Below, piece after piece: positions 2,610-31,693 of a stretch of DNA of 64,000 nucleotides; position 1 is the first letter of the stretch; the number at the start of each line of letters is the position of its first letter. Made by a program: the position numbers and the translations under genes. Below the pieces are notes generated by a model. That model was given only the letters and a program-made list of their open reading frames with translations, was not told the DNA's origin and searched no databases. Source of the DNA: Streptomyces sp. NA04227 (GTDB lineage: Bacteria > Actinomycetota > Actinomycetes > Streptomycetales > Streptomycetaceae). The stretch is taken from assembly GCF_013364195.1 (NCBI RefSeq), contig NZ_CP054918.1:4949001-5013000 (forward strand), written 5' to 3'.

Positions 2610-2924
2610 ATGGCGTGGATCGTCCTCGTCGCTTCCGGAGTGCTGGAGGCCGTATGGGCCACCGCACTTTCCAGATCCCAGAACTTCCGGCGCCCGTTGC
2701 CGTCCGCCGTCTTCGTGGTGGGCTTCGTGCTGAGTACGGCCGGTCTCGCCTTTGCCATGCGGACCTTGCCGACCGGTACCGCGTATGCGGTGTGGGTCGG
2801 TGTCGGTGCCGTACTCACCGCGGGCTGGGCCATGGTCACCGGCCGCGAAACCGCCACCCGGGCAAGGGTGTTGCTGCTGCTCGGCTTGGTCGGCTGTGTG
2901 GCCGGACTCAAGGTGGTGGGCTGA
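2610..2924 (+). CDS. SMR-family transporter, guanidinium exporter subunit 1
   Basis: A 104-residue protein with four predicted membrane helices, the usual size for small multidrug resistance transporters. The first helix carries the essential glutamate (Glu13) in the motif LEAVWATALS, the SugE/Gdx-type signature rather than the EmrE type. Members of this branch exchange guanidinium for protons across the membrane. The ATG is chosen because GGAGGT lies 10 nt upstream, just behind a guanidine-III aptamer. The stop overlaps the next SMR start by one base, so the two are probably translated together and form a heterodimer like YkkCD. The riboswitch makes guanidinium the most likely substrate. Confidence 0.93.
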   Translation: MAWIVLVASGVLEAVWATALSRSQNFRRPLPSAVFVVGFVLSTAGLAFAMRTLPTGTAYAVWVGVGAVLTAGWAMVTGRETATRARVLLLLGLVGCVAGLKVVG

Positions 2925-3349
2925 TGACCTGGGTGATCCTCTTCCTCAGCTCCGTCTTCGAAGCAGTGTGGGCCACGGCCCTCGGCCGGTCCGACGGACT
3001 CCACGAGCCGGTTCCCACGTGCGTCTTCCTGGTCGGCGTGGTCCTCAGCATGGCGGGTCTTGGGTACGCGATGAAGCGCATCCAGCTCAGCGTCGCGTAC
3101 GCGGTCTGGATCGGCGGGGGAGCGGCCATGACCGTGCTCTACGGCGTGCTCACCGGGCACGAGTCCGCCTCGCCCCTCAAGGGCGTCTTTCTGGCGGGGA
3201 TCGTCGCCTGTGTGGTCGGGCTGAAGTTCGTCAAGGGCAGCGAGAACGGTGAAGACGGCAGGGGTGGTGAAGACGGCGAGGACGAGGGGAGCGGTGAGGG
3301 CAGTGGGAAGGGCACCGATGATCACCGCTGCCCGGCCCGGAATCCTTGA
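2924..3349 (+). CDS. SMR-family transporter, guanidinium exporter subunit 2
   Basis: The second SMR subunit of the pair starts within the stop codon of the first (ATGA). Residues 1-104 form the four-helix SMR fold with Glu13 in FEAVWATALG. The remaining 37 residues are an unusual hydrophilic tail rich in Gly, Glu, Asp and Ser that ordinary SMR proteins lack. Paired SMR genes usually act as antiparallel heterodimers, with each subunit inserted in one orientation. The charged tail may help to fix the topology of this subunit, but that is a guess. Expression should be controlled through the upstream guanidine aptamer. Confidence 0.92.
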   Translation: MTWVILFLSSVFEAVWATALGRSDGLHEPVPTCVFLVGVVLSMAGLGYAMKRIQLSVAYAVWIGGGAAMTVLYGVLTGHESASPLKGVFLAGIVACVVGLKFVKGSENGEDGRGGEDGEDEGSGEGSGKGTDDHRCPARNP

Positions 3350-4526: not shown

Positions 4527-5780
4527 TCACAGCCGGACGATGACCAGGGCCGTGTCGTCGGTGGCGCCGCCCGCCGGGAGCAGGTCGAGGAGGAGGGCGT
4601 CGGCGAGGCTTTCGGCGTCTCGGCCGCGGTGGCGGGTCAGGGAGTCGGTGAGGCGGGTGAGGCCGGTGTCGATGTCCTCGTGGCGGCGTTCCACCAGGCC
4701 GTCGGTGTAGAGGACGAGGACGCAGCCCTCGGTGAAGGGGGTGGACTCCTGGGGCCGGGCCTGGGGCTCGAACCGGGCGCCGAGGGGCGGATCGGTGGCG
4801 CGGTCGAGGAGTTGGACCGTGCCGTCGGGGTACAGCAGGGCGGGCGGTGGGTGGCCCGCGCAGCTGTAGGTGAGGGTCCAGGTGGTCCAGTCGACGAAGG
4901 TGGTCACGGCGGTGGTGGACTCGGCGCCCTCGACGAACCGGGCGTAGCGGCCGAGTACGTCCAGGGCCTGGGCCGGGCCGTTGGAGACGAGCGAGGCGGC
5001 GCTCAGGGCGCTGCGCAGTTGCCCCATCACACCCGCGGCGGCCAGGCCGTGGCCGACCACGTCGCCGACCGCGACCGCGATCCGGTCGCCGGGCAGCTCG
5101 ACCAGGTCGTACCAGTCCCCGCACACGTTCAGCGCGCCCGCCGCGGGCCGGTAGCGCACGGCGGCCCTGTGGTGCCCGACCGGGCGCGGCGCGGGCAGCA
5201 TCGCCTCCTGGAGGCTGAGCGCGACCTCGCGCTCGCGGGCGTGCGCGAGCCGCAGCCGTTCGTTGACCTCCTGGAGTTCGCGGGCGCGGCCGTACAGCTC
5301 CGCCTCCAGGGCGCGCGTACGGCCCCCGCCCGCCCGACCGCCCCTGGCCCGGATGAGCTCGGTGACCTCCTCGGACCGGTGCAGCAGCAGGGCCACGCGC
5401 CCGTCCGGGCCGCGTACCGGAATGTTGACCGGGCTCCAGTAGCGCTCCTCCCACACCCCGGGGCGGTCCGGGCGCTCCACGTCGTAGCGCTGCAGGGCCA
5501 TGCTGTCGCGCTCGCCGGTCTTCAGTGCCCGCGTCAGCGAGGCCTTGACGTTGCTCACGCCGTGGGAGGTCTGGTCGTCGGGGTTCTCGGGGAAGACGTC
5601 GAAGATGTAGTGCCCGACGACCTGTTCCCGTTCGCGGCCGGTGAGCTGGAGGAACTCGGTGTTGACGTCGATGTACACGAAGCGCGCGTCGAGCAGGGCC
5701 ACGGCGCCGGGCAGCGCCCGGAACACCGCCGTGTAGTCGATGTCGACTTCGGTGTCGACTTCGGTGTCGCCTTCGGTCAC
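4527..5780 (-). CDS. PAS-domain PP2C/SpoIIE-type serine phosphatase
   Basis: Starting at GTG 5780 the protein has 417 residues. A PAS sensor domain (about 15-130, with VNTEFLQLTGRE) is followed by a coiled-coil linker ending in the characteristic LQEAMLP, then a SpoIIE-type PP2C catalytic domain with metal-binding motifs GDWYD, GDVVGHG, YTDGLVE and ATDDTAL. Such phosphatases usually dephosphorylate anti-anti-sigma factors and release a sigma factor. The frame stays open upstream to 6059, but that part is Gln/Arg-rich and encoded by short tandem repeats (for example GCGTATCGCTCCT at about 5985-6015), so the shorter start is preferred. No partner anti-sigma gene is adjacent. Confidence 0.88.
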   Translation of the reverse strand: MTEGDTEVDTEVDIDYTAVFRALPGAVALLDARFVYIDVNTEFLQLTGREREQVVGHYIFDVFPENPDDQTSHGVSNVKASLTRALKTGERDSMALQRYDVERPDRPGVWEERYWSPVNIPVRGPDGRVALLLHRSEEVTELIRARGGRAGGGRTRALEAELYGRARELQEVNERLRLAHAREREVALSLQEAMLPAPRPVGHHRAAVRYRPAAGALNVCGDWYDLVELPGDRIAVAVGDVVGHGLAAAGVMGQLRSALSAASLVSNGPAQALDVLGRYARFVEGAESTTAVTTFVDWTTWTLTYSCAGHPPPALLYPDGTVQLLDRATDPPLGARFEPQARPQESTPFTEGCVLVLYTDGLVERRHEDIDTGLTRLTDSLTRHRGRDAESLADALLLDLLPAGGATDDTALVIVRL

Positions 5781-18143: not shown

Positions 18144-18157
18144 ATCGAACGTTCGAT
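18144..18157. promoter_or_regulatory. Perfect 14-bp palindrome upstream of fahA
   Basis: ATCGAACGTTCGAT, perfectly symmetrical, 125 bp upstream of the fahA start. It is a candidate regulator-binding site. No regulator gene is adjacent. Confidence 0.45.
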
Positions 18158-18182
18158 TATTGGACGGTCGTGGTGCTGAACT

Positions 18183-18783
18183 GCGGGATTCGAAGGTGAT
18201 GCGAAGGTGGCTCGGGAAGACGAGGACGGTCGCGGTGACCCGCCGCCACGCTGCTGAAGCACCTGTCCGCAAAGGGGAGTTCGTGCGTCGCTTCCGATTC
18301 CTGTGCATCCTCGCGGCGCTAGTGGGAGTGGAGCTCGGGGTGAACCGACCTGGTCGCGATGCCCTCAGTGCAGGCGACAAGCGTTTCGGCGGACGCGAGT
18401 GCCATGGCCAAGTCTGCGGGCCGGAAGTGGGCGCTCAAGTCGCTTGCCACCGCAAGCACGTCTCGATGGAGATGAACGACACCGGCCAGTACGAGTGGCG
18501 ACTGCACGTCCGCAGTGACTTGGTCAGTTCCTGGGAGCGCTTGACCCTGCACACCAACCATGGCGGCGGCACGCGGCCCGAGCCGATCGCGGGTTGGACC
18601 CGCGCGTGGGGGAGTGCGTGCTGGTCTTCCAGTACGAGGGTTCTGCTCCGGGGTGGAGGCGCCGACGGGTCGATCCGGAGCAAGGAAGCTGATCAGGCAG
18701 CGCCAGCGGGGGCGGTCCAGATCGTCGAATTTCTGCACGAGGATGCTCAACTGGTCGGCTATGAGTGGTTAGTTGAGCTCTAG
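18183..18783 (+). pseudogene. Possible frameshifted gene remnant, unrecognised
   Basis: No intact convincing gene lies between fahA and the putative immunity gene (18020-18917). On the + strand, one frame gives a protein-like stretch QYEWRLHVRSDLVSSW (about 18490-18540). It appears to continue in another frame as VGECVLVFQYEG (about 18606-18645) and ends in the first frame with FLHEDAQLVGYEWLVEL to the stop at 18783. Switching of frames suggests a decayed gene. No family is recognised. Confidence 0.3.
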
Positions 18784-18917
18784 GGCAGGGTCCTCTTTCT
18801 GGTCGAAATATGGCAGACCTGGGGTTGCTGGCACGTAAGCAGAGGCTGTGGTTTGGAAGCCGGCGGGACGGGGTGGGAGGCATGGACTCGGACGTTATGG
18901 CGGGAGCGGATATTACG

Positions 18918-19454
18918 CTAGGGGAGTTTTGGGATAAGTTCGAGCCATTCTTTCAGCTCATTGTTGAGTTTAGAATGCGAAGCGAGGTAGGGGTGAATGT
19001 CTTGGAGCGGGGTTAGCATGTTCTTGATTCTTCTAAGAGGCAACATCTGGCTAGGTTCGAGTTCCCGCCAGTGTGCCGACATTTCAGAAGCAGTCGCACA
19101 GTCGGTTTCGATGTTATCGATCACATACCTGCTCAGGTCCTCCGGGCTCCTTGTGGCGTCATCGTCCGCGGGTCCGAACTCCTTGATCAAGTAGCTGCGG
19201 ACTCTGGCTGATTCAGCGACCTGCTTGGCGGTGTCGATGTATTCGGCCTCGCGCTTCTTGGAGATTGTTTCGAGAGCCAACTTCCCCCACCGGACCCGCT
19301 CGATCACGCCGATCTCTTGGGTCTGCATTTTTCCGACGGAGAAATCTCGAAGAGCCTCCCACGCCTGTTGAGGCGCTGCCGTCGCTCGAATCTCTGAAAC
19401 GAGACTCTCCAGTCTTGTTAGTGGAAGGTGCAGAAATTCCTTTGATTCGAGCAT
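18918..19454 (-). CDS. Putative immunity protein of the RHS toxin
   Basis: A 178-residue, mostly helical, soluble protein of no family I recognise. The case for immunity is positional. It starts 34 nt after the RHS stop on the same strand, it is the only gene there, and it shares the visibly AT-richer base composition of the toxin tip while flanking genes are very GC-rich. Many Lys, Glu and Ser codons end in A or T, unlike neighbouring genes. The start at 19454 has only a weak GAGG upstream. It should bind the C-terminal toxin domain in the cytoplasm. Confidence 0.6.
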   Translation of the reverse strand: MLESKEFLHLPLTRLESLVSEIRATAAPQQAWEALRDFSVGKMQTQEIGVIERVRWGKLALETISKKREAEYIDTAKQVAESARVRSYLIKEFGPADDDATRSPEDLSRYVIDNIETDCATASEMSAHWRELEPSQMLPLRRIKNMLTPLQDIHPYLASHSKLNNELKEWLELIPKLP

Positions 19455-19488
19455 GCTTGCCTCGCGGATGACCGTCTCCAGTGTTGTG

Positions 19489-22400
19489 TTACTCGAATCC
19501 GACTACGCCAGCCCTCTCGAACGCTTCCCTGCCTATCCGTAGGCTCTCCTGAGAGGGCCTGTAGTGGCCGCTGTTGTTATTGATCTCCATTCCCCAGTAG
19601 GACCCATTTCCGCCCGCGATATCTGCCTCGCCGGCTGCTTGTACCGGCGCCCCATTAGTGAGCACGGGATGCTTTAGCTCGACACCGTCGGCGAATTTCG
19701 GTATCACTAGCAATTCACCGTTCGTCGACACTGCCCATTTGATTGTCCCAGAATTAATGACTTCATCAAATCCATTGTCGCCTACTCTAAGTGGTTTGAC
19801 TCCCAAGCGCTCGGCATCAGCCAGTTCTCGGTCCAGCTCCTCGGGCATCTGATTTTCGTAGTTCGGTGCAAGCCCGAGAGGGTCAGACCATGAGAGCGGG
19901 TTGACTACGTAGGCGAGTGCATTGGGTGATGGGATTAGCCCAAACGGGTCGGCTGTGATGTATCGGGCGGTGCCTGGATCGTAGTGGCGGAATACGTTGT
20001 ACTGTAGCCCGGTTTCGGGGTCAAAATATTGCCCCGGAAAACGCAGCGGCGTATAAGCCGTACTATCCCTGGTCCACGTCGTGCTCCCCCACAGCGTCGT
20101 CCGAGTCCGCCAAGCCACTTCCCCCGACTCCGCCACCAACTCTGTAGGCGTCCCCACCAGATCCGTGACGATGGCGAAGAACCGTGCGTCGATCTCCTCC
20201 TGCGGAGCCTCGGCCGCCGTTATTCGTTCCGTCTGGGCCAGTGGGTGCAGCCCGTCGTGGTCCCACGTCAGCGTCACCGGGCGGGGCATGGACGCAGCCG
20301 TGCTGACCTGCTCGCACAGTGTCGTGCCGTCCCACGTGAAGTCCACGCGTTCGGTGACCGTCTGACCGTCGTCGCCGAGGCGCGACTTCGATATTCGGCG
20401 GGCCAGGGCGTCGTACTCGTAGCGCCAGACCGCCCCGTCCGGTGTCACGACCTCCCGTAGGCGGTCCTCCGCGTCCCACTTGTACCGCCACGTGTCCGGC
20501 TTCCGTGACAGCCGGACCTTCTGGCGCAGGACCACTCGGCCCGCCGCGTCATGCTCGTACCGGACATTGCCCGCCCGCATGATCCGCGTGCCCTCGTACG
20601 CGCGCTCGCCCCTGGCTTCTCCGCCCGGGTGGGAGTCCGGCCAGTTGGCCTGTGTCTGGTTGCCCGCAGCGTCGTACGCGTACGTCTCCGTCCAGCCGTG
20701 GGCATGGACCGCCGTGACCCGGCCCGTCGGGTCCAGGTCGAAGGAGCGAGTGCCGCCGAGCATGTCCTCGATGGCGGTCAGGTTGCCGTCGGCGCGGTAG
20801 CGGTAGGCGCGGTGCTGGATTCGAGTGCCGCCCTCACCGGCGACCGACTGGCTGCTCAGGCGGCCCATCGGGTCGTACGTGCTGTCGATCGACAGCAAGT
20901 CGCCCACGGAACGGGAGAGTTCGCGGCCCGCCGCGTCACGGGTGTACGAAATCCGCCGACCCGACGTGGTCAGTTCCTCGCGTCGCCCCGCCGCGTCGTA
21001 CGTCCACGAACTCTCCGCCCCCGACGGCGTGACCCGGCCGTTCCTGCGGCCGAACTCGTCGTAGGTGTACTTCAGTTCGCGGCCTGCCACCGTTTCGGAA
21101 CGTACTCGGCCGAAGCGGTCCCGCAGGATGGTGAGCTGGGTGTCCGGGTTGGTGGCCTCGGCGAGTTGGTCCGTGAAGTCGTATGCGTACGTGGTTACTT
21201 GGCCTGCTGCGTCCTTGCGGACGATCTGACCCAACACATTCCGCTCGAACGTGATCCGGTCGCCCAGCGGCGTCACCCGCCCCGTGAGACGTCCCACCGC
21301 ATCATGCTCATACCGCTGCACCCGGTCGTCGAAGTCCGTCTCCGCGACCAGGTGCCCGGCGCCGTCGTACTCGTAATTCCACGTCAGCCCCTGGGGGTTG
21401 CTGACCTGAGTGAGGCGGAGTTCCGTGTCGTGGCTGAACTCGTAGCGGACGCCGTCCGGCCCTGTTCGGGCCGTCAGCAGGTCGAAGTGCGTGTACTCGA
21501 AGCTGGTCGTGCCGCCGAGTGGGTCGGTGTGGGTGAGGCAGTTGCCCTCGCCGTCGTACGTCCAGGACTCCGCCGTACCGTCCGGGGTCACCCGGCGGGC
21601 CAGCTTGCCCTCAACCGTCCACTCCAGGCGCGTAGTTGAGCCCGTCGGGTCGGTCACCGCGACCGCTCGCCCCAGCCCGTCCCGCGCGCAATACGTCGTC
21701 GCGCCCAGCGGATCCGTGACCGCGACCGGCAGCCCGGCCCGGTCGCAGCGGATGTGGGATACGCCGCCCGCCGGATCGGTGACCGTCGTGGGGCGCCCCG
21801 CCTCGTCATAGGTGTAGTGCGTCGTGTGGCCGGAGGGAGAAGTGGTCGACGTGCGGTTGCCACGCTCGTCGTAGGCGTGGCGGACGGTCGTGCCGTCGAA
21901 CCTCGACACCCGTACCGGCAGGCCGAGTTGGTCGTACTCGGCTGTGGAGCGGCGGCCGTCCGGGCGGATGACTTCCGTGACCCGGCCGTCGGCGTCGTAG
22001 GTGAAGTGGGTCGTGTGGCCGAGTGGGTCGGTGCGGGCCAGGATGTTGCCCAGGCGGTCGCGTTCGTAGCGGACGGTGGCGCCGAGTGGGTCGATCTCCG
22101 CGACGATCTGGTCGTCGCGGTCGATGACGAAGCGGCGGGTGTGGCCCTCGGGTGTGACGGTGCGGGTTTCGCGCAGGCCCGTTTGCGGGTCCGGGTCCGT
22201 GTACTCGATCCGCAGGGTCATGTGGCCCGCTTCGCCGCCCTCGGCGATGCAGCGGTCCCGGTCGTCGTAGGCGTAGAAGTACGAGCGGTCGTTGGTGTCC
22301 GTCCAGGACGTGACGCGGTTCGCCTCGTCGTAGGTGAAACGCAGCGGCAGGCCCGAGGAGTTGACGACCTCGGTGAGGTTGCGGGCGGCGCTCACCTCGC

Positions 22401-24390
22401 CCGCGCCGCCCTGGCCCTGGCCGCCTCCGTCGTATCCGTACCGCATCAGCGTGAGGTCCGAGCCGTCGTCCGCCGCTCCGGCCAGGGCCAGGGCGGTTAC
22501 GCGACCGTCCTCCGTGCTCACCTTCAGCCGGTGACCCGCGCTGTGCACGAGCCCCGTCGGCGTCCCCTCCGCGTCGTACTCGAAGGTGATCCAGTTGCCG
22601 TTGCGGTCGTCGATCTGTTCCAGGACCGCGAGGTGGTCGTTCCGGTCGGCGAAGTGCCAGACGCGCAGGGTTCCCGGGTCCGTGATCGTGTAGCCGTCGT
22701 CTGTGCGGTCCAGGGGCCACCGCGGTCCGTGTTCGGGCAGGACGGGTACGCCGGGCGCCGGGTGCGGGTAGGACAGGACCGCGCCGTCGTCGCGTACGAA
22801 CAGCACGCCCTGCGCGTCGAGTTGGAGGCGCTGGTCGAGCGTGCTGGTCCAAGACGGGCCGAACCAGCGGCCCAGGCGGTAGCCGGACTCCACGCGGCGG
22901 GTGAAGACGAGGGGGAGCGCGCCCGGGATCGTGACGTCGGTCTGCGGCAGGTACATCTTGCCGGTGACCATGTTCACCGGGTCCGACCCGCCGGACTCCT
23001 GCCTGTTCTCCGGCTCGCTGTTGCCCTTGCCTTGTTCCACGCGGTCGCGTGACTCGTCGCTGCCCTTCGCATCCGGGTCCGCGTTCGAGTCCGCGCCCGG
23101 GCTCTTGTCCGCGTCGGGGCCGCCCTTCCCCTCCATCGTGTCCTTCAGCGCCTCCTGCGCCGCGTTCAGCGAGTCCGCGTCCATCTGTGTGGCCGGTGCG
23201 CCGTCCGGTCCGTCCTTGCGGCCCGGGCCGCCCTCGGCCGGGGAAGGGGCGTCGGCGCCGCCGTTCACCCGTGTCGGGAATTTGCCCAGGCCCCGGCCCC
23301 TGCCGAGGAACAGTTCCGGGATCAACCGGCCCCCCGTCTCGGACGGGTCGGCCTTCAACGCCTGATACGCCTGGAGAGCCGTCCGCTCCGGATGCAGGAC
23401 CTGCGAACCGACGCCCGCCAGCGTCATGTTGAGGTTCTCGTAGTAGGCGGCCGGGTGCGTGAGGTTGTACGGATCCAGCGGGTTCAGGCCGCGGACCGTG
23501 TTCAGCGCACCCGCCCCGGCCTTGAACAGACCGGCGCCCGCGTGCGCGGCCTCCACCTTGAACACCGTTCCGGTGTCGTTGAAGGCCGCCTTCATCTGTC
23601 CCAGGGGGGAGGGCTCTTGGGGCGCGTGTTGCAGGGCTTCCCGCACCAGCGTGACCGCGTCCGTTCCCGCCGCGTTGCGCTGCCGCCGCGCCTCGGCGAG
23701 AAGCGCGCGTGCCGCTTCCTTCGCCTCCTCGCCCGGGTCGGTCGTCGACGGTTTGGTCAGTTGGTCCTCGTTGCCCTTCATCTCCGCCAGGGCGTACGCG
23801 ATGACCTCCTTCTCGTACGCCTCGGACGCCTTCTCGGCCTCCCGGTAACCGTCGATCGCGATCTGGGCCTGGGACTTGGCCCACTGGACGACGTCCGCGT
23901 ACGCCTCAAGCGCGCCCTTGGCCTTCTCGCACGCGTCCGCCGCCCGGAGCCACTTCGTGGGGTGCGCCCCGAACTTCTTGCGGAACGCCTCCCCGGAGAC
24001 GCCCTGCCAGCCTTCGGAGTCCACCGCCTGCATGCCCGTGCCCACCGCACCGAACGCGGCGGCGAAGTCCTTCAAGTGCCCGGCTACATCGCGGAGTTTG
24101 CCGGGGTTGCCGTGGATGAGCTCACCGGCCTGCTCGGTCTGGCCGAGCTGCTGTTCGTCGACTTCGGCGCCGAGGTCGGAGCCCAGACGGTCGGCGCCGT
24201 CCTCGACCTTGTCGGCGAGCCCGTCCGCGCCGACCGATTCCAGGCCCGAGCCGAGGCCGTGACCGGCCTTGATGACCCCGTCGCCGGCGATCTCCTTGCC
24301 CTTGTCGAAGCCGTCCTTGAGCTTGCTTGCGCCGTCGTTGGCCAGGTCCTTGGCCTTGTCGTCCAGGCCGCCCGGGAGATCCCAGCCCAT
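19489..24390 (-). CDS. RHS/YD-repeat polymorphic toxin with type VII-like N-terminus
   Basis: A 1633-residue protein. Residues 1-240 are helical with a W-x-G motif (WQG at 128-130), as in proteins thought to leave by the type VII/ESX system. A charged linker (about 400-480) precedes a DUF6531-type entry segment (DPVNMVTGKMYLPQTDVTI). About 900 residues of YD repeats follow (for example THFTYDADGRV). The RHS core boundary DPETGLQYNVFRHYDPGTAR then ends at DPLGLAP. The last 124 residues (1510-1633) are a separate toxin tip with conserved-looking SGHYRPSQESL and HPVLTNGAPV motifs, whose activity I cannot name. The ATG overlaps the stop of the preceding gene (ATGA). The tip DNA is AT-richer than the repeat region. 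Confidence 0.93.
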   Translation of the reverse strand: MGWDLPGGLDDKAKDLANDGASKLKDGFDKGKEIAGDGVIKAGHGLGSGLESVGADGLADKVEDGADRLGSDLGAEVDEQQLGQTEQAGELIHGNPGKLRDVAGHLKDFAAAFGAVGTGMQAVDSEGWQGVSGEAFRKKFGAHPTKWLRAADACEKAKGALEAYADVVQWAKSQAQIAIDGYREAEKASEAYEKEVIAYALAEMKGNEDQLTKPSTTDPGEEAKEAARALLAEARRQRNAAGTDAVTLVREALQHAPQEPSPLGQMKAAFNDTGTVFKVEAAHAGAGLFKAGAGALNTVRGLNPLDPYNLTHPAAYYENLNMTLAGVGSQVLHPERTALQAYQALKADPSETGGRLIPELFLGRGRGLGKFPTRVNGGADAPSPAEGGPGRKDGPDGAPATQMDADSLNAAQEALKDTMEGKGGPDADKSPGADSNADPDAKGSDESRDRVEQGKGNSEPENRQESGGSDPVNMVTGKMYLPQTDVTIPGALPLVFTRRVESGYRLGRWFGPSWTSTLDQRLQLDAQGVLFVRDDGAVLSYPHPAPGVPVLPEHGPRWPLDRTDDGYTITDPGTLRVWHFADRNDHLAVLEQIDDRNGNWITFEYDAEGTPTGLVHSAGHRLKVSTEDGRVTALALAGAADDGSDLTLMRYGYDGGGQGQGGAGEVSAARNLTEVVNSSGLPLRFTYDEANRVTSWTDTNDRSYFYAYDDRDRCIAEGGEAGHMTLRIEYTDPDPQTGLRETRTVTPEGHTRRFVIDRDDQIVAEIDPLGATVRYERDRLGNILARTDPLGHTTHFTYDADGRVTEVIRPDGRRSTAEYDQLGLPVRVSRFDGTTVRHAYDERGNRTSTTSPSGHTTHYTYDEAGRPTTVTDPAGGVSHIRCDRAGLPVAVTDPLGATTYCARDGLGRAVAVTDPTGSTTRLEWTVEGKLARRVTPDGTAESWTYDGEGNCLTHTDPLGGTTSFEYTHFDLLTARTGPDGVRYEFSHDTELRLTQVSNPQGLTWNYEYDGAGHLVAETDFDDRVQRYEHDAVGRLTGRVTPLGDRITFERNVLGQIVRKDAAGQVTTYAYDFTDQLAEATNPDTQLTILRDRFGRVRSETVAGRELKYTYDEFGRRNGRVTPSGAESSWTYDAAGRREELTTSGRRISYTRDAAGRELSRSVGDLLSIDSTYDPMGRLSSQSVAGEGGTRIQHRAYRYRADGNLTAIEDMLGGTRSFDLDPTGRVTAVHAHGWTETYAYDAAGNQTQANWPDSHPGGEARGERAYEGTRIMRAGNVRYEHDAAGRVVLRQKVRLSRKPDTWRYKWDAEDRLREVVTPDGAVWRYEYDALARRISKSRLGDDGQTVTERVDFTWDGTTLCEQVSTAASMPRPVTLTWDHDGLHPLAQTERITAAEAPQEEIDARFFAIVTDLVGTPTELVAESGEVAWRTRTTLWGSTTWTRDSTAYTPLRFPGQYFDPETGLQYNVFRHYDPGTARYITADPFGLIPSPNALAYVVNPLSWSDPLGLAPNYENQMPEELDRELADAERLGVKPLRVGDNGFDEVINSGTIKWAVSTNGELLVIPKFADGVELKHPVLTNGAPVQAAGEADIAGGNGSYWGMEINNNSGHYRPSQESLRIGREAFERAGVVGFE

Positions 24391-25247
24391 CAGTCCTCGT
24401 CCTCGCCCTGTTCGCTGCTCGGTTCGCCGCTCGATTCGTTGGTCGCGGCACCCCAGAACGCGGTCGTCGGCGTCGGGTCACTCACCCGCTGCATCGTCTC
24501 GCCGTTGGCGGCGCGCTCCTCGGGGGAGGTCCCGAACCAGCGGTCCAGGGTCTCCTGGTGCTCCGAACCGCTCTCCCTGGTGATCGCTTCCGCTCCGCCG
24601 AAGGGGATCAGGAAGGGCGACTCGACCGCGTCGCGGCCCGCGTCGCGCAGCGCCTGGCGGGAGGTCTCCTGCGCGTGCGCGAACGAGTCCGGGCTGTAGT
24701 TCGGGTCCGCGAGGGCGTGGTTCTCCTTCACGAGATCGTTCCAGGACTGGTTGGCCGCCTGCTCCTCGCTGAGCATCGGGTTGCCGATCCCCGCGTTCGC
24801 CACGACCTTCGCCGCGTCACTCACGTACTGGTCGACCTGATGCATCGTGCCCGCCGAGAGCCCGACCGACTCCGCGAAGTGGTTCCCCTCCGCGATCAGG
24901 TCACGTACGCCCCAGTCCCACCGCTCGCAGAACGACTTGAAGACATCGGTGAGTTCGCTGTGTCCGATGTCCAGGCCGTTCAGCGCCAGCTCGGAGAAGC
25001 CCTTGCCCGCCGCCGAGTAACCCCAGCCGATCGAGAGCTCTTTGAGCTCTGCCAGGGACGCGTTGATACCGGCCGTGATCAGGTTCATGCCCATGGTCCG
25101 GATGTCCGGTACCGCGCCCTCCGCGGAAACCGGTCCGGCTCCGTTCGACCCCGAGCCCTCCGCGGGCCCGAACCCTCCCGCGACCGGACCCGCGCCGTTC
25201 TGCCCCAGCCCTTGGTCGTCGGTCTGGCCCGCGAAGCTCTCAGCCAC
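24390..25247 (-). CDS. Helical protein translated with the RHS toxin
   Basis: A 285-residue protein with no recognised family. The first 55 residues are Gly/Ala/Pro-rich. The middle (about 60-190) is helical and amphipathic and reads like an ESX/WXG100-type or toxin-chaperone helix bundle (NLITAGINASLAELKELSIG). The end is acidic. GTG 25247 is chosen because GGAAGG lies 6 nt upstream; it overlaps the SseB gene by 8 nt, and its stop overlaps the RHS ATG. That coupling suggests an equimolar partner, secretion adaptor or chaperone of the RHS protein. Confidence 0.75.
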   Translation of the reverse strand: MAESFAGQTDDQGLGQNGAGPVAGGFGPAEGSGSNGAGPVSAEGAVPDIRTMGMNLITAGINASLAELKELSIGWGYSAAGKGFSELALNGLDIGHSELTDVFKSFCERWDWGVRDLIAEGNHFAESVGLSAGTMHQVDQYVSDAAKVVANAGIGNPMLSEEQAANQSWNDLVKENHALADPNYSPDSFAHAQETSRQALRDAGRDAVESPFLIPFGGAEAITRESGSEHQETLDRWFGTSPEERAANGETMQRVSDPTPTTAFWGAATNESSGEPSSEQGEDED

Positions 25248-25941
25248 GGCCGTCCTTCCTTTCGGGGCCCGTGCCACCCGCACCGGCTCGTCCGCCGTCG
25301 CCTGTCACTTCAGCCGTCCCGGGTACGTCCGCAGCCACGGTCTCCGGCACGATTCCCCGCACCGGTGGGAACAGCATTCCGCCGCCCTCCCGCCCGGCGT
25401 CGAGCGCGACTCCGCACGGCATGCGGACCAGCGGTACGGCCACATCGAGCAGCCAAGCGCCCTGCACCCGCCGGTAGTTCCACATACGGTCGCCCTCGCC
25501 CCGCGCCAACGCCCAACGCGCCAGGGCCTCTTCGTCCGAGAAGGCGTACAGCCAGCGGACACCGCCGAACTCGCCGGAGAGCGGCGGCGCCTCCGCTACG
25601 GGCTCTTCGGACGCGAGCGGGATCAGCACCTGCGCACGGCGGAACTCGCCGAGCAGTACGCGGAACTTGCGTCGGACAAGCCGGACTTGGGCCTCGTCGA
25701 CGTCGACAGCGACAGGGGCGGGCCCGGTGCCAGGGGCGGGCCCGGCGACCGGCTCGGGAGCGGGTACGGGAGTGGGCTCATGTGCTGGTGCTGGTGCTGG
25801 TGCGGGCTTCGGGTGGGGTGGGGAATCCGGCACCGTAGTTGCCGTGGACTCCACCAGGTCCCACAGTCGCGAACGCGGTGCCCCGCCTGCGCCGCCCTCG
25901 ACCGAACCCGAATCCGACGTCGGCGCCCGCCCGTCTCCCAC
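25240..25941 (-). CDS. SseB-domain protein heading the RHS operon
   Basis: A 233-residue protein. A Pro/Ala-rich segment of about 75 residues (many PAPAPAP-like units) is followed by an SseB-type domain (about 95-200): VLIPLAS, GGVRWLYAFSDEEALARWA, GVALDAGREGGGMLFPP. In Streptomyces such domains occur next to type VII-like and polymorphic toxin genes, where their role is not established. It overlaps the next gene by 8 nt and is probably the first gene of the toxin operon. The GTG start has no clear ribosome site. Confidence 0.75.
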   Translation of the reverse strand: MGDGRAPTSDSGSVEGGAGGAPRSRLWDLVESTATTVPDSPPHPKPAPAPAPAHEPTPVPAPEPVAGPAPGTGPAPVAVDVDEAQVRLVRRKFRVLLGEFRRAQVLIPLASEEPVAEAPPLSGEFGGVRWLYAFSDEEALARWALARGEGDRMWNYRRVQGAWLLDVAVPLVRMPCGVALDAGREGGGMLFPPVRGIVPETVAADVPGTAEVTGDGGRAGAGGTGPERKDGRG

Positions 25942-31083: not shown

Positions 31084-31693
31084 GGGCACGTGCTCGGAAT
31101 AAGGGGAGGGTGCTCGGGCCGGGGTGTCCCCTCGGGCGGGGTGTCCTGTTCAGCCCCCGTCGTTCAGGCGCTGTCCTCCCAGTCTTCGCCCTGCTCGCTC
31201 CCGCCCCTGCTCCACTGTCCCGGTCGGTGATTCGAAGATCATCTTCGGGGCCCCATCGGCCAGTTGGGATAATTGGAGTAATTTACGCCCAGTTGGGGGT
31301 GGGTCGAGGGTGAGCGGAAGTGGAGAGGGCCGTGCGGGTGGCTGGTGGTCCGTCCACGGGGAAGTGGCCAAAATCGCGCGCTCCGGGACGTCCGTGCGCG
31401 GGCAGGTTCCTGGCACCGTGGGTGACCGCTTTCGCAGGTGTAACGGTTCGGGACGGGTGCGCCGTACGGCACGGGCGGTGGCCGTCGGTGCGCGGTGGGC
31501 CCGTATTTCCGGGGGTCCCGGGTGAAAGGTGGCGGATCGTGACCGCATGGCGTCCGGATGGTGTCCGGGCTGTGCGGGCAGGCGCTCACTGTGATCGAAA
31601 GTCGACCGGATACGCTGAGTTGAGTGAACGCAGCGACACATCGACAAACCGTGTGATCGACGTCGTATTTGTCAGCAGACAGGAGAACCTTTC
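31084..31693. other. 610-bp leader region of the polyprenyl synthase gene
   Basis: No convincing gene is seen. It holds the near-perfect palindrome CGAAGATCATCTTCG (31233-31247), followed by a locally AT-rich stretch (31269-31288, TAATTGGAGTAATTTACG) flanked by repeated CCAGTTGGG. This looks like a promoter with an operator, about 400 bp upstream of the gene. Confidence 0.4.

Follow-up and report, generated by a model that had tools for sequence, protein, structure and literature searches.

A Tox-EDA39C-like toxin tip and its candidate immunity protein at the 3' end of an RHS gene in Streptomyces sp. NA04227

The 3' end of an RHS gene in Streptomyces sp. NA04227 raises the question whether its last 124 codons and the small gene behind them form an exchangeable toxin-immunity cassette and, if so, to which families the two proteins belong. 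The gene lies in a stretch of 64,000 nucleotides (the window; NZ_CP054918.1, positions 4,949,001 to 5,013,000) that belongs to a single contig of 7.9 Mb, and the named protein relatives found were mostly from Streptomyces. A preliminary description, made from the sequence alone, had placed a toxin tip behind the RHS boundary DPLGLAP and had suggested that tip and immunity protein might both be new; the boundary, the 124-residue tip with its HPVLTNGAPV and SGHYRPS motifs, and the 178-residue gene behind it are all present in the sequence. With its 20 RHS_repeat stretches (PF05593, Pfam) and RHS core, a varying tip and a conserved partner gene, the 1633-residue protein appears, on sequence grounds, to be an RHS/YD polymorphic toxin. 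Taken as a whole, the locus is probably a polymorphic-toxin cassette at the 3' end of an RHS gene of the type VII secretion system (T7SS) type, composed of a Tox-EDA39C tip and an immunity protein.

The coupling of the tip to the gene behind it was assessed in 38 tip-bearing loci found among 84,980 species genomes, using a partner profile built from the 178-residue protein together with four relatives that sequence searches had returned. In 35 of the 38 loci, from three phyla, this profile matched the frame that immediately follows the tip, and it matched none of the 1861 other frames of the same loci; in 11 stretches that carry other tips and served as controls, it matched a single frame out of 374, which belongs to the displaced cassette described below. 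The loci include Sorangium, Kribbella, Microbispora, Kitasatospora, Luteimicrobium and Saccharothrix, as well as the cyanobacterium Hormoscilla, Rhodopirellula, Parabeggiatoa and Aquabacterium, and the partner matches span actinobacteria, Sorangium and, weakly (E = 2e-4), Hormoscilla. A cyanobacterial plasmid protein also carries the tip, at 50% identity, with a partner relative behind it (E = 1e-6). The tip-immunity pairing suggested earlier is thus supported by gene order, and the tip and the 178-residue gene are almost certainly a toxin-immunity pair. In the three loci that the partner profile did not match (L086, L087 and L091), another small gene or none stands in that place. The small proteins behind the tip in L086 and L091 share 40% identity (a score reached by 0 of 100 shuffles), and the one behind the tip of an E. 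coli Rhs protein (L143) resembles that of L091 (again 0 of 100) and only marginally that of L086 (3 of 100), so that a second partner type exists for this tip.

We next turn to the exchange of tips among relatives, whose loci were found with the 297-residue gene upstream of the RHS gene as an anchor. Relatives of this gene were present in 10 of the 31 genomes searched, our own included. Eleven stretches from relatives were obtained, one of which reaches a contig end and one of which has no RHS frame of at least 300 residues. In all nine remaining stretches the RHS frame ends in a tip unrelated to that of the window (no BLAST match at E = 1), on a core 53-67% identical to that of the window; by eye, at least seven tip types occur among the nine. 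In the relative G004 a different tip ends the RHS gene, and downstream of it lie a truncated tip of the window type and a partner relative, an arrangement that by its sequence is a displaced cassette. The tip had 46 homologues at E = 1e-3 or better, with cores 28-68% identical to that of the window, and for 45 of these 46 proteins conservation was higher in the tip than in the core. Tip exchange at such loci is therefore supported, as far as sequence comparison goes, by unrelated tips on similar cores and by the displaced cassette. Cassette exchange in RHS toxins is already known, and the locus shares with other exchangeable-tip RHS toxins the conserved core, the DPLGL boundary, the variable tip, the small gene behind it and the displaced cassette, whereas it differs from them in the T7SS signal domain of its protein.

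The claim of exchange had originally been based on base composition. As had been described, guanine-plus-cytosine (GC) content is low throughout the tip (0.544) and the 178-residue gene (0.536) compared with the rest of the RHS gene (0.694), and at third codon positions (GC3) the values are 0.60, 0.64 and 0.88, respectively. The lowest-GC 900-bp stretch of the window, in steps of 100 bp, starts at 18901 (GC 0.541). The fall had been placed at about 19864, right at the tip boundary; the low-GC block actually reaches 20070, about 200 bp into the conserved core end, and the last 300 bp of the core are already at 0.607. Among 22 same-tip loci with a core GC above 0.66, taken from the 34 tabulated of 38, the median drop from core to tip was 0.112 (range -0.024 to 0.199), and that of the window was 0.15. 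Since the fall in GC begins within the core and many relatives have it too, composition alone does not show a recent exchange. The exchange itself thus stands on the relatives' tips, whereas the argument from composition is weak. A fall within the conserved core end fits recombination there, without proving it.

As to the family of the tip, searches of Pfam, NCBIfam and PHROGs gave no convincing match, and scans with PADLOC and PHROGs gave no result. The AlphaFold2 model of the tip is of the alpha+beta type, with a predicted local distance difference test score (pLDDT) of 96.3. The positions listed in Table 1 as candidate catalytic residues were drawn from a 29-member alignment (A4; the window and 28 of the 38 loci) and from 14 diverse members, in which H65, G99 and H100 are invariant, S98 is nearly so and position 101 is Y or F. 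Wider relatives of the tip form the C-terminus of an LXG protein encoded on a Listeria innocua plasmid, of an RHS protein from Janthinobacterium and of the E. coli Rhs protein, and another stands beside a VENN pre-toxin gene in Cronobacter; the carriers are RHS, LXG and CDI-like (contact-dependent inhibition) proteins. Tox-EDA39C, as described in the relevant passages of Zhang et al. (2012; PMC3482391), is an alpha+beta domain with a motif of H and Sx[HS]Y, predicted to be a ribonuclease (RNase) A-like enzyme with two histidines; it is carried by LXG, type V secretion system and RHS toxins (also with HINT) and by eukaryotes, occurs at the C-terminus of plant EDA39, and has Imm-SuFu as its partner. 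The window tip resembles this description in its C-terminal place in a polymorphic toxin, its alpha+beta model, its H65 and S98-G-H100-Y101, and its RHS and LXG carriers. Because the motif H...SGHY and the carriers fit, the tip very likely belongs to Tox-EDA39C, as matched by the motif and description in those passages, and it is probably not the new toxin family that had been suspected.

The tip was present in at least 3 of 296 genomes in a phylum sample (15 candidates scored per genome) and in 18 of 295 same-genus genomes, and the E. coli tip type is rare, with a single case in 5426 complete genomes. No tip relative turned up in two scans of viral contigs, and Foldseek against viral models (BFVD) returned two unnamed proteins, G8DGH9 (E = 1.1e-4, 27% identity over 82 columns) and E5EQ39 (E = 2.6e-3).

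Under the interpretation that we favor, the RHS protein would be exported by an ESX system and would deliver the tip to adjacent cells. Searches of the genome matched EccB once and WXG100 four times, which makes an ESX system likely, and the signal domain together with these genes indicates that the protein is probably exported that way; the 297-residue upstream gene is a possible export partner. In the recipient cell, the tip would be an enzyme that needs no metal and works with two histidines (H65 and H100) and a serine (S98), and it would cut RNA by means of the two histidines. We hold this predicted RNase activity with about equal confidence and doubt. The 178-residue protein would bind and block the tip, thereby protecting the producer and its kin, and tip and immunity gene would move together, probably through recombination within the conserved core end.

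Several observations weigh against this interpretation. K42 is invariant in the 29 closer members and not conserved in the 14 diverse ones, the Imm-SuFu partner given in PMC3482391 differs from the helical partner of the window, low GC is common to many carriers of the cassette and so no evidence of a recent event in the window, and the solved folds nearest to the tip model are PHPT1 and PPK1, not an RNase. BECR-fold RNases are not among the VIA-align matches listed for the tip model, which excludes nothing. The best-surviving alternative is a toxin-immunity cassette in which the tip is another phosphoryl-transfer enzyme on a PHPT1/PPK1-like scaffold, acting on protein phosphohistidine or on a nucleotide; we regard it as rather unlikely. 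Human PHPT1 (2hw4, 2nmm) has no detectable sequence relation to the tip, and the Z-score is too low for a claim of a shared fold; a relation to PHPT1/Ocnus received an hhalign probability of 0.2% in a weak test with one sequence only, and there was no such Pfam match. A broader reading, with the tip family on a PHPT1/PPK1-like scaffold using a His pair and Ser for phosphoryl transfer, the same domain in plant EDA39/IQM, and a helical Leu-Pro immunity family plugging the active site, seems unlikely. We take EDA39 to be IQM1, and IQM proteins presumably carry H...SGHYxP; no paper joining the two was found. The passages of plant IQM papers that were searched contain none of the motif letters, so that the IQM link remains a lead, and plant EDA39/IQM as portrayed there differs in being eukaryotic and in having an N-terminal IQ motif.

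For the Tox-EDA39C reading of the tip, our literature search found the domain only in the 2012 prediction and found no experimental test. From what that prediction says of it, Tox-EDA39C is a widespread toxin domain common to bacteria and eukaryotes. Being compact and having a partner that is conserved in several phyla, the tip offers a clean route to the production, chemistry and target of the domain, and may bear on the role of the same domain in plants.

The 178-residue protein had been described as an unrecognised immunity protein, and this held: it has no match in Pfam or NCBIfam, and it differs from Imm-SuFu. Its structure model is all-helical (pLDDT 95.8), whereas Imm-SuFu is given as alpha+beta where PMC3482391 describes it, and the SUFU domain (PF05076) was matched neither by the 178-residue protein nor by any of 21 aligned partner members (A5; the window and 20 of the 38 loci). 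The partners end in Leu-Pro in 30 of 31 tabulated cases, the exception being a short frame. Since the published partner differs and no family matched, the sequences look like an unnamed second immunity family for Tox-EDA39C. A literature search found no description of a helical partner family, most subscription papers being outside its reach; what is new seems to be this family of helical immunity proteins and its almost invariable association with the toxin domain.

An alternative for this gene is that the tip is a toxin and the 178-residue protein a co-moving accessory factor. Such a role would agree with the relatives of the protein that occur without the tip (a relative was present in at least 65 of 392 same-genus genomes, with 8 candidates scored per genome, compared with the lower share given above for the tip) and with the domain being fused in longer proteins. 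Against it, the family stands directly behind the tip in nearly all tip-bearing loci, where the immunity gene of an RHS system normally sits, and such systems commonly have orphan immunity genes as well; we therefore consider an accessory role very unlikely. The immunity reading would give a likely function to an unnamed helical family that is this frequent in the genus.

The longer proteins carry the immunity domain fused to an N-terminal segment of about 90 residues (L044-L049, L051-L056 and L058), and are possibly orphan or multi-domain immunity proteins. In five of six cases they stand, by eye, behind genes resembling an E2 dehydrogenase and an acetyltransferase. A likeness of the segment to EF-Tu domain II was dropped, as three scanned proteins gave a best Pfam E of 0.04 and no PDB match. 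In L129 (minus strand, 4882-5163) the same segment forms a separate 94-residue gene, 41% identical, which adjoins an orphan immunity gene and had no PDB match. Outside the window, the same genome holds an orphan immunity relative (L126; G000:C1:1715548-1715931, E = 2.4e-13), which adjoins three small opposite-strand genes that look ESX-type by eye, and one SuFu gene far from the window (G000:C1:5606750).

Finally, the low GC might be put down to a degenerate RHS end, shaped by amino-acid bias and random drift, that has no functional tip. Low GC is indeed common to the cassette in high-GC relatives. GC3 falls as well, however, which amino-acid bias alone does not explain; the candidate catalytic residues are invariant or nearly so in diverse members, and conservation is higher in the tip than in the core, leaving this explanation scarcely credible.

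Table 1. Positions of the features discussed, in the window unless another locus is named.
Feature	Position	Strand	Basis or remark
RHS-toxin gene, 1633 residues, T7SS type	19489..24390	-	open frame; T7SS_signal, DUF6531, RHS, Rhs_assc_core
T7SS signal domain, residues 25-260 of the RHS protein	23611..24318	-	PF21725, E 2.6e-83
Rhs-associated core, residues 1433-1507, conserved core end	19870..20094	-	TIGR03696, E 2e-20
Toxin tip, 124 residues after DPLGLAP, Tox-EDA39C-like	19492..19863	-	46 homologues, AlphaFold2 model, motif
His65 of the tip, candidate catalytic residue	19669..19671	-	invariant in 29 and in 14 aligned members
Ser98-Gly99-His100 of the tip, candidate catalytic residues	19564..19572	-	invariant in 29 members
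Immunity candidate, 178 residues, 34 bp past the tip's stop codon	18918..19454	-	open frame; family profile
297-residue gene directly upstream of the RHS gene, locus anchor	24390..25283	-	open frame
Low-GC block, GC 0.552	18716..20070		best two-changepoint fit, 5-bp grid
Second-type small partner, Rhodopirellula	L086 6284-6706		cupin-like by eye
Second-type small partner, Aquabacterium	L091 6408-6701		cupin-like by eye
Second-type small partner, E. coli	L143 ~2891-3254		cupin-like by eye

Around the cassette, a six-frame reading by eye of window positions 18150-18920 revealed nothing related to the RHS protein or to the immunity protein. The same genome has a second RHS gene outside the window (L108; G000:C1:5062453-5065578), which is 50% identical to that of the window over residues 465-1513 and lacks its tip type, and a tRNA-Pro (cgg) gene lies at 31104-31181 of the window.
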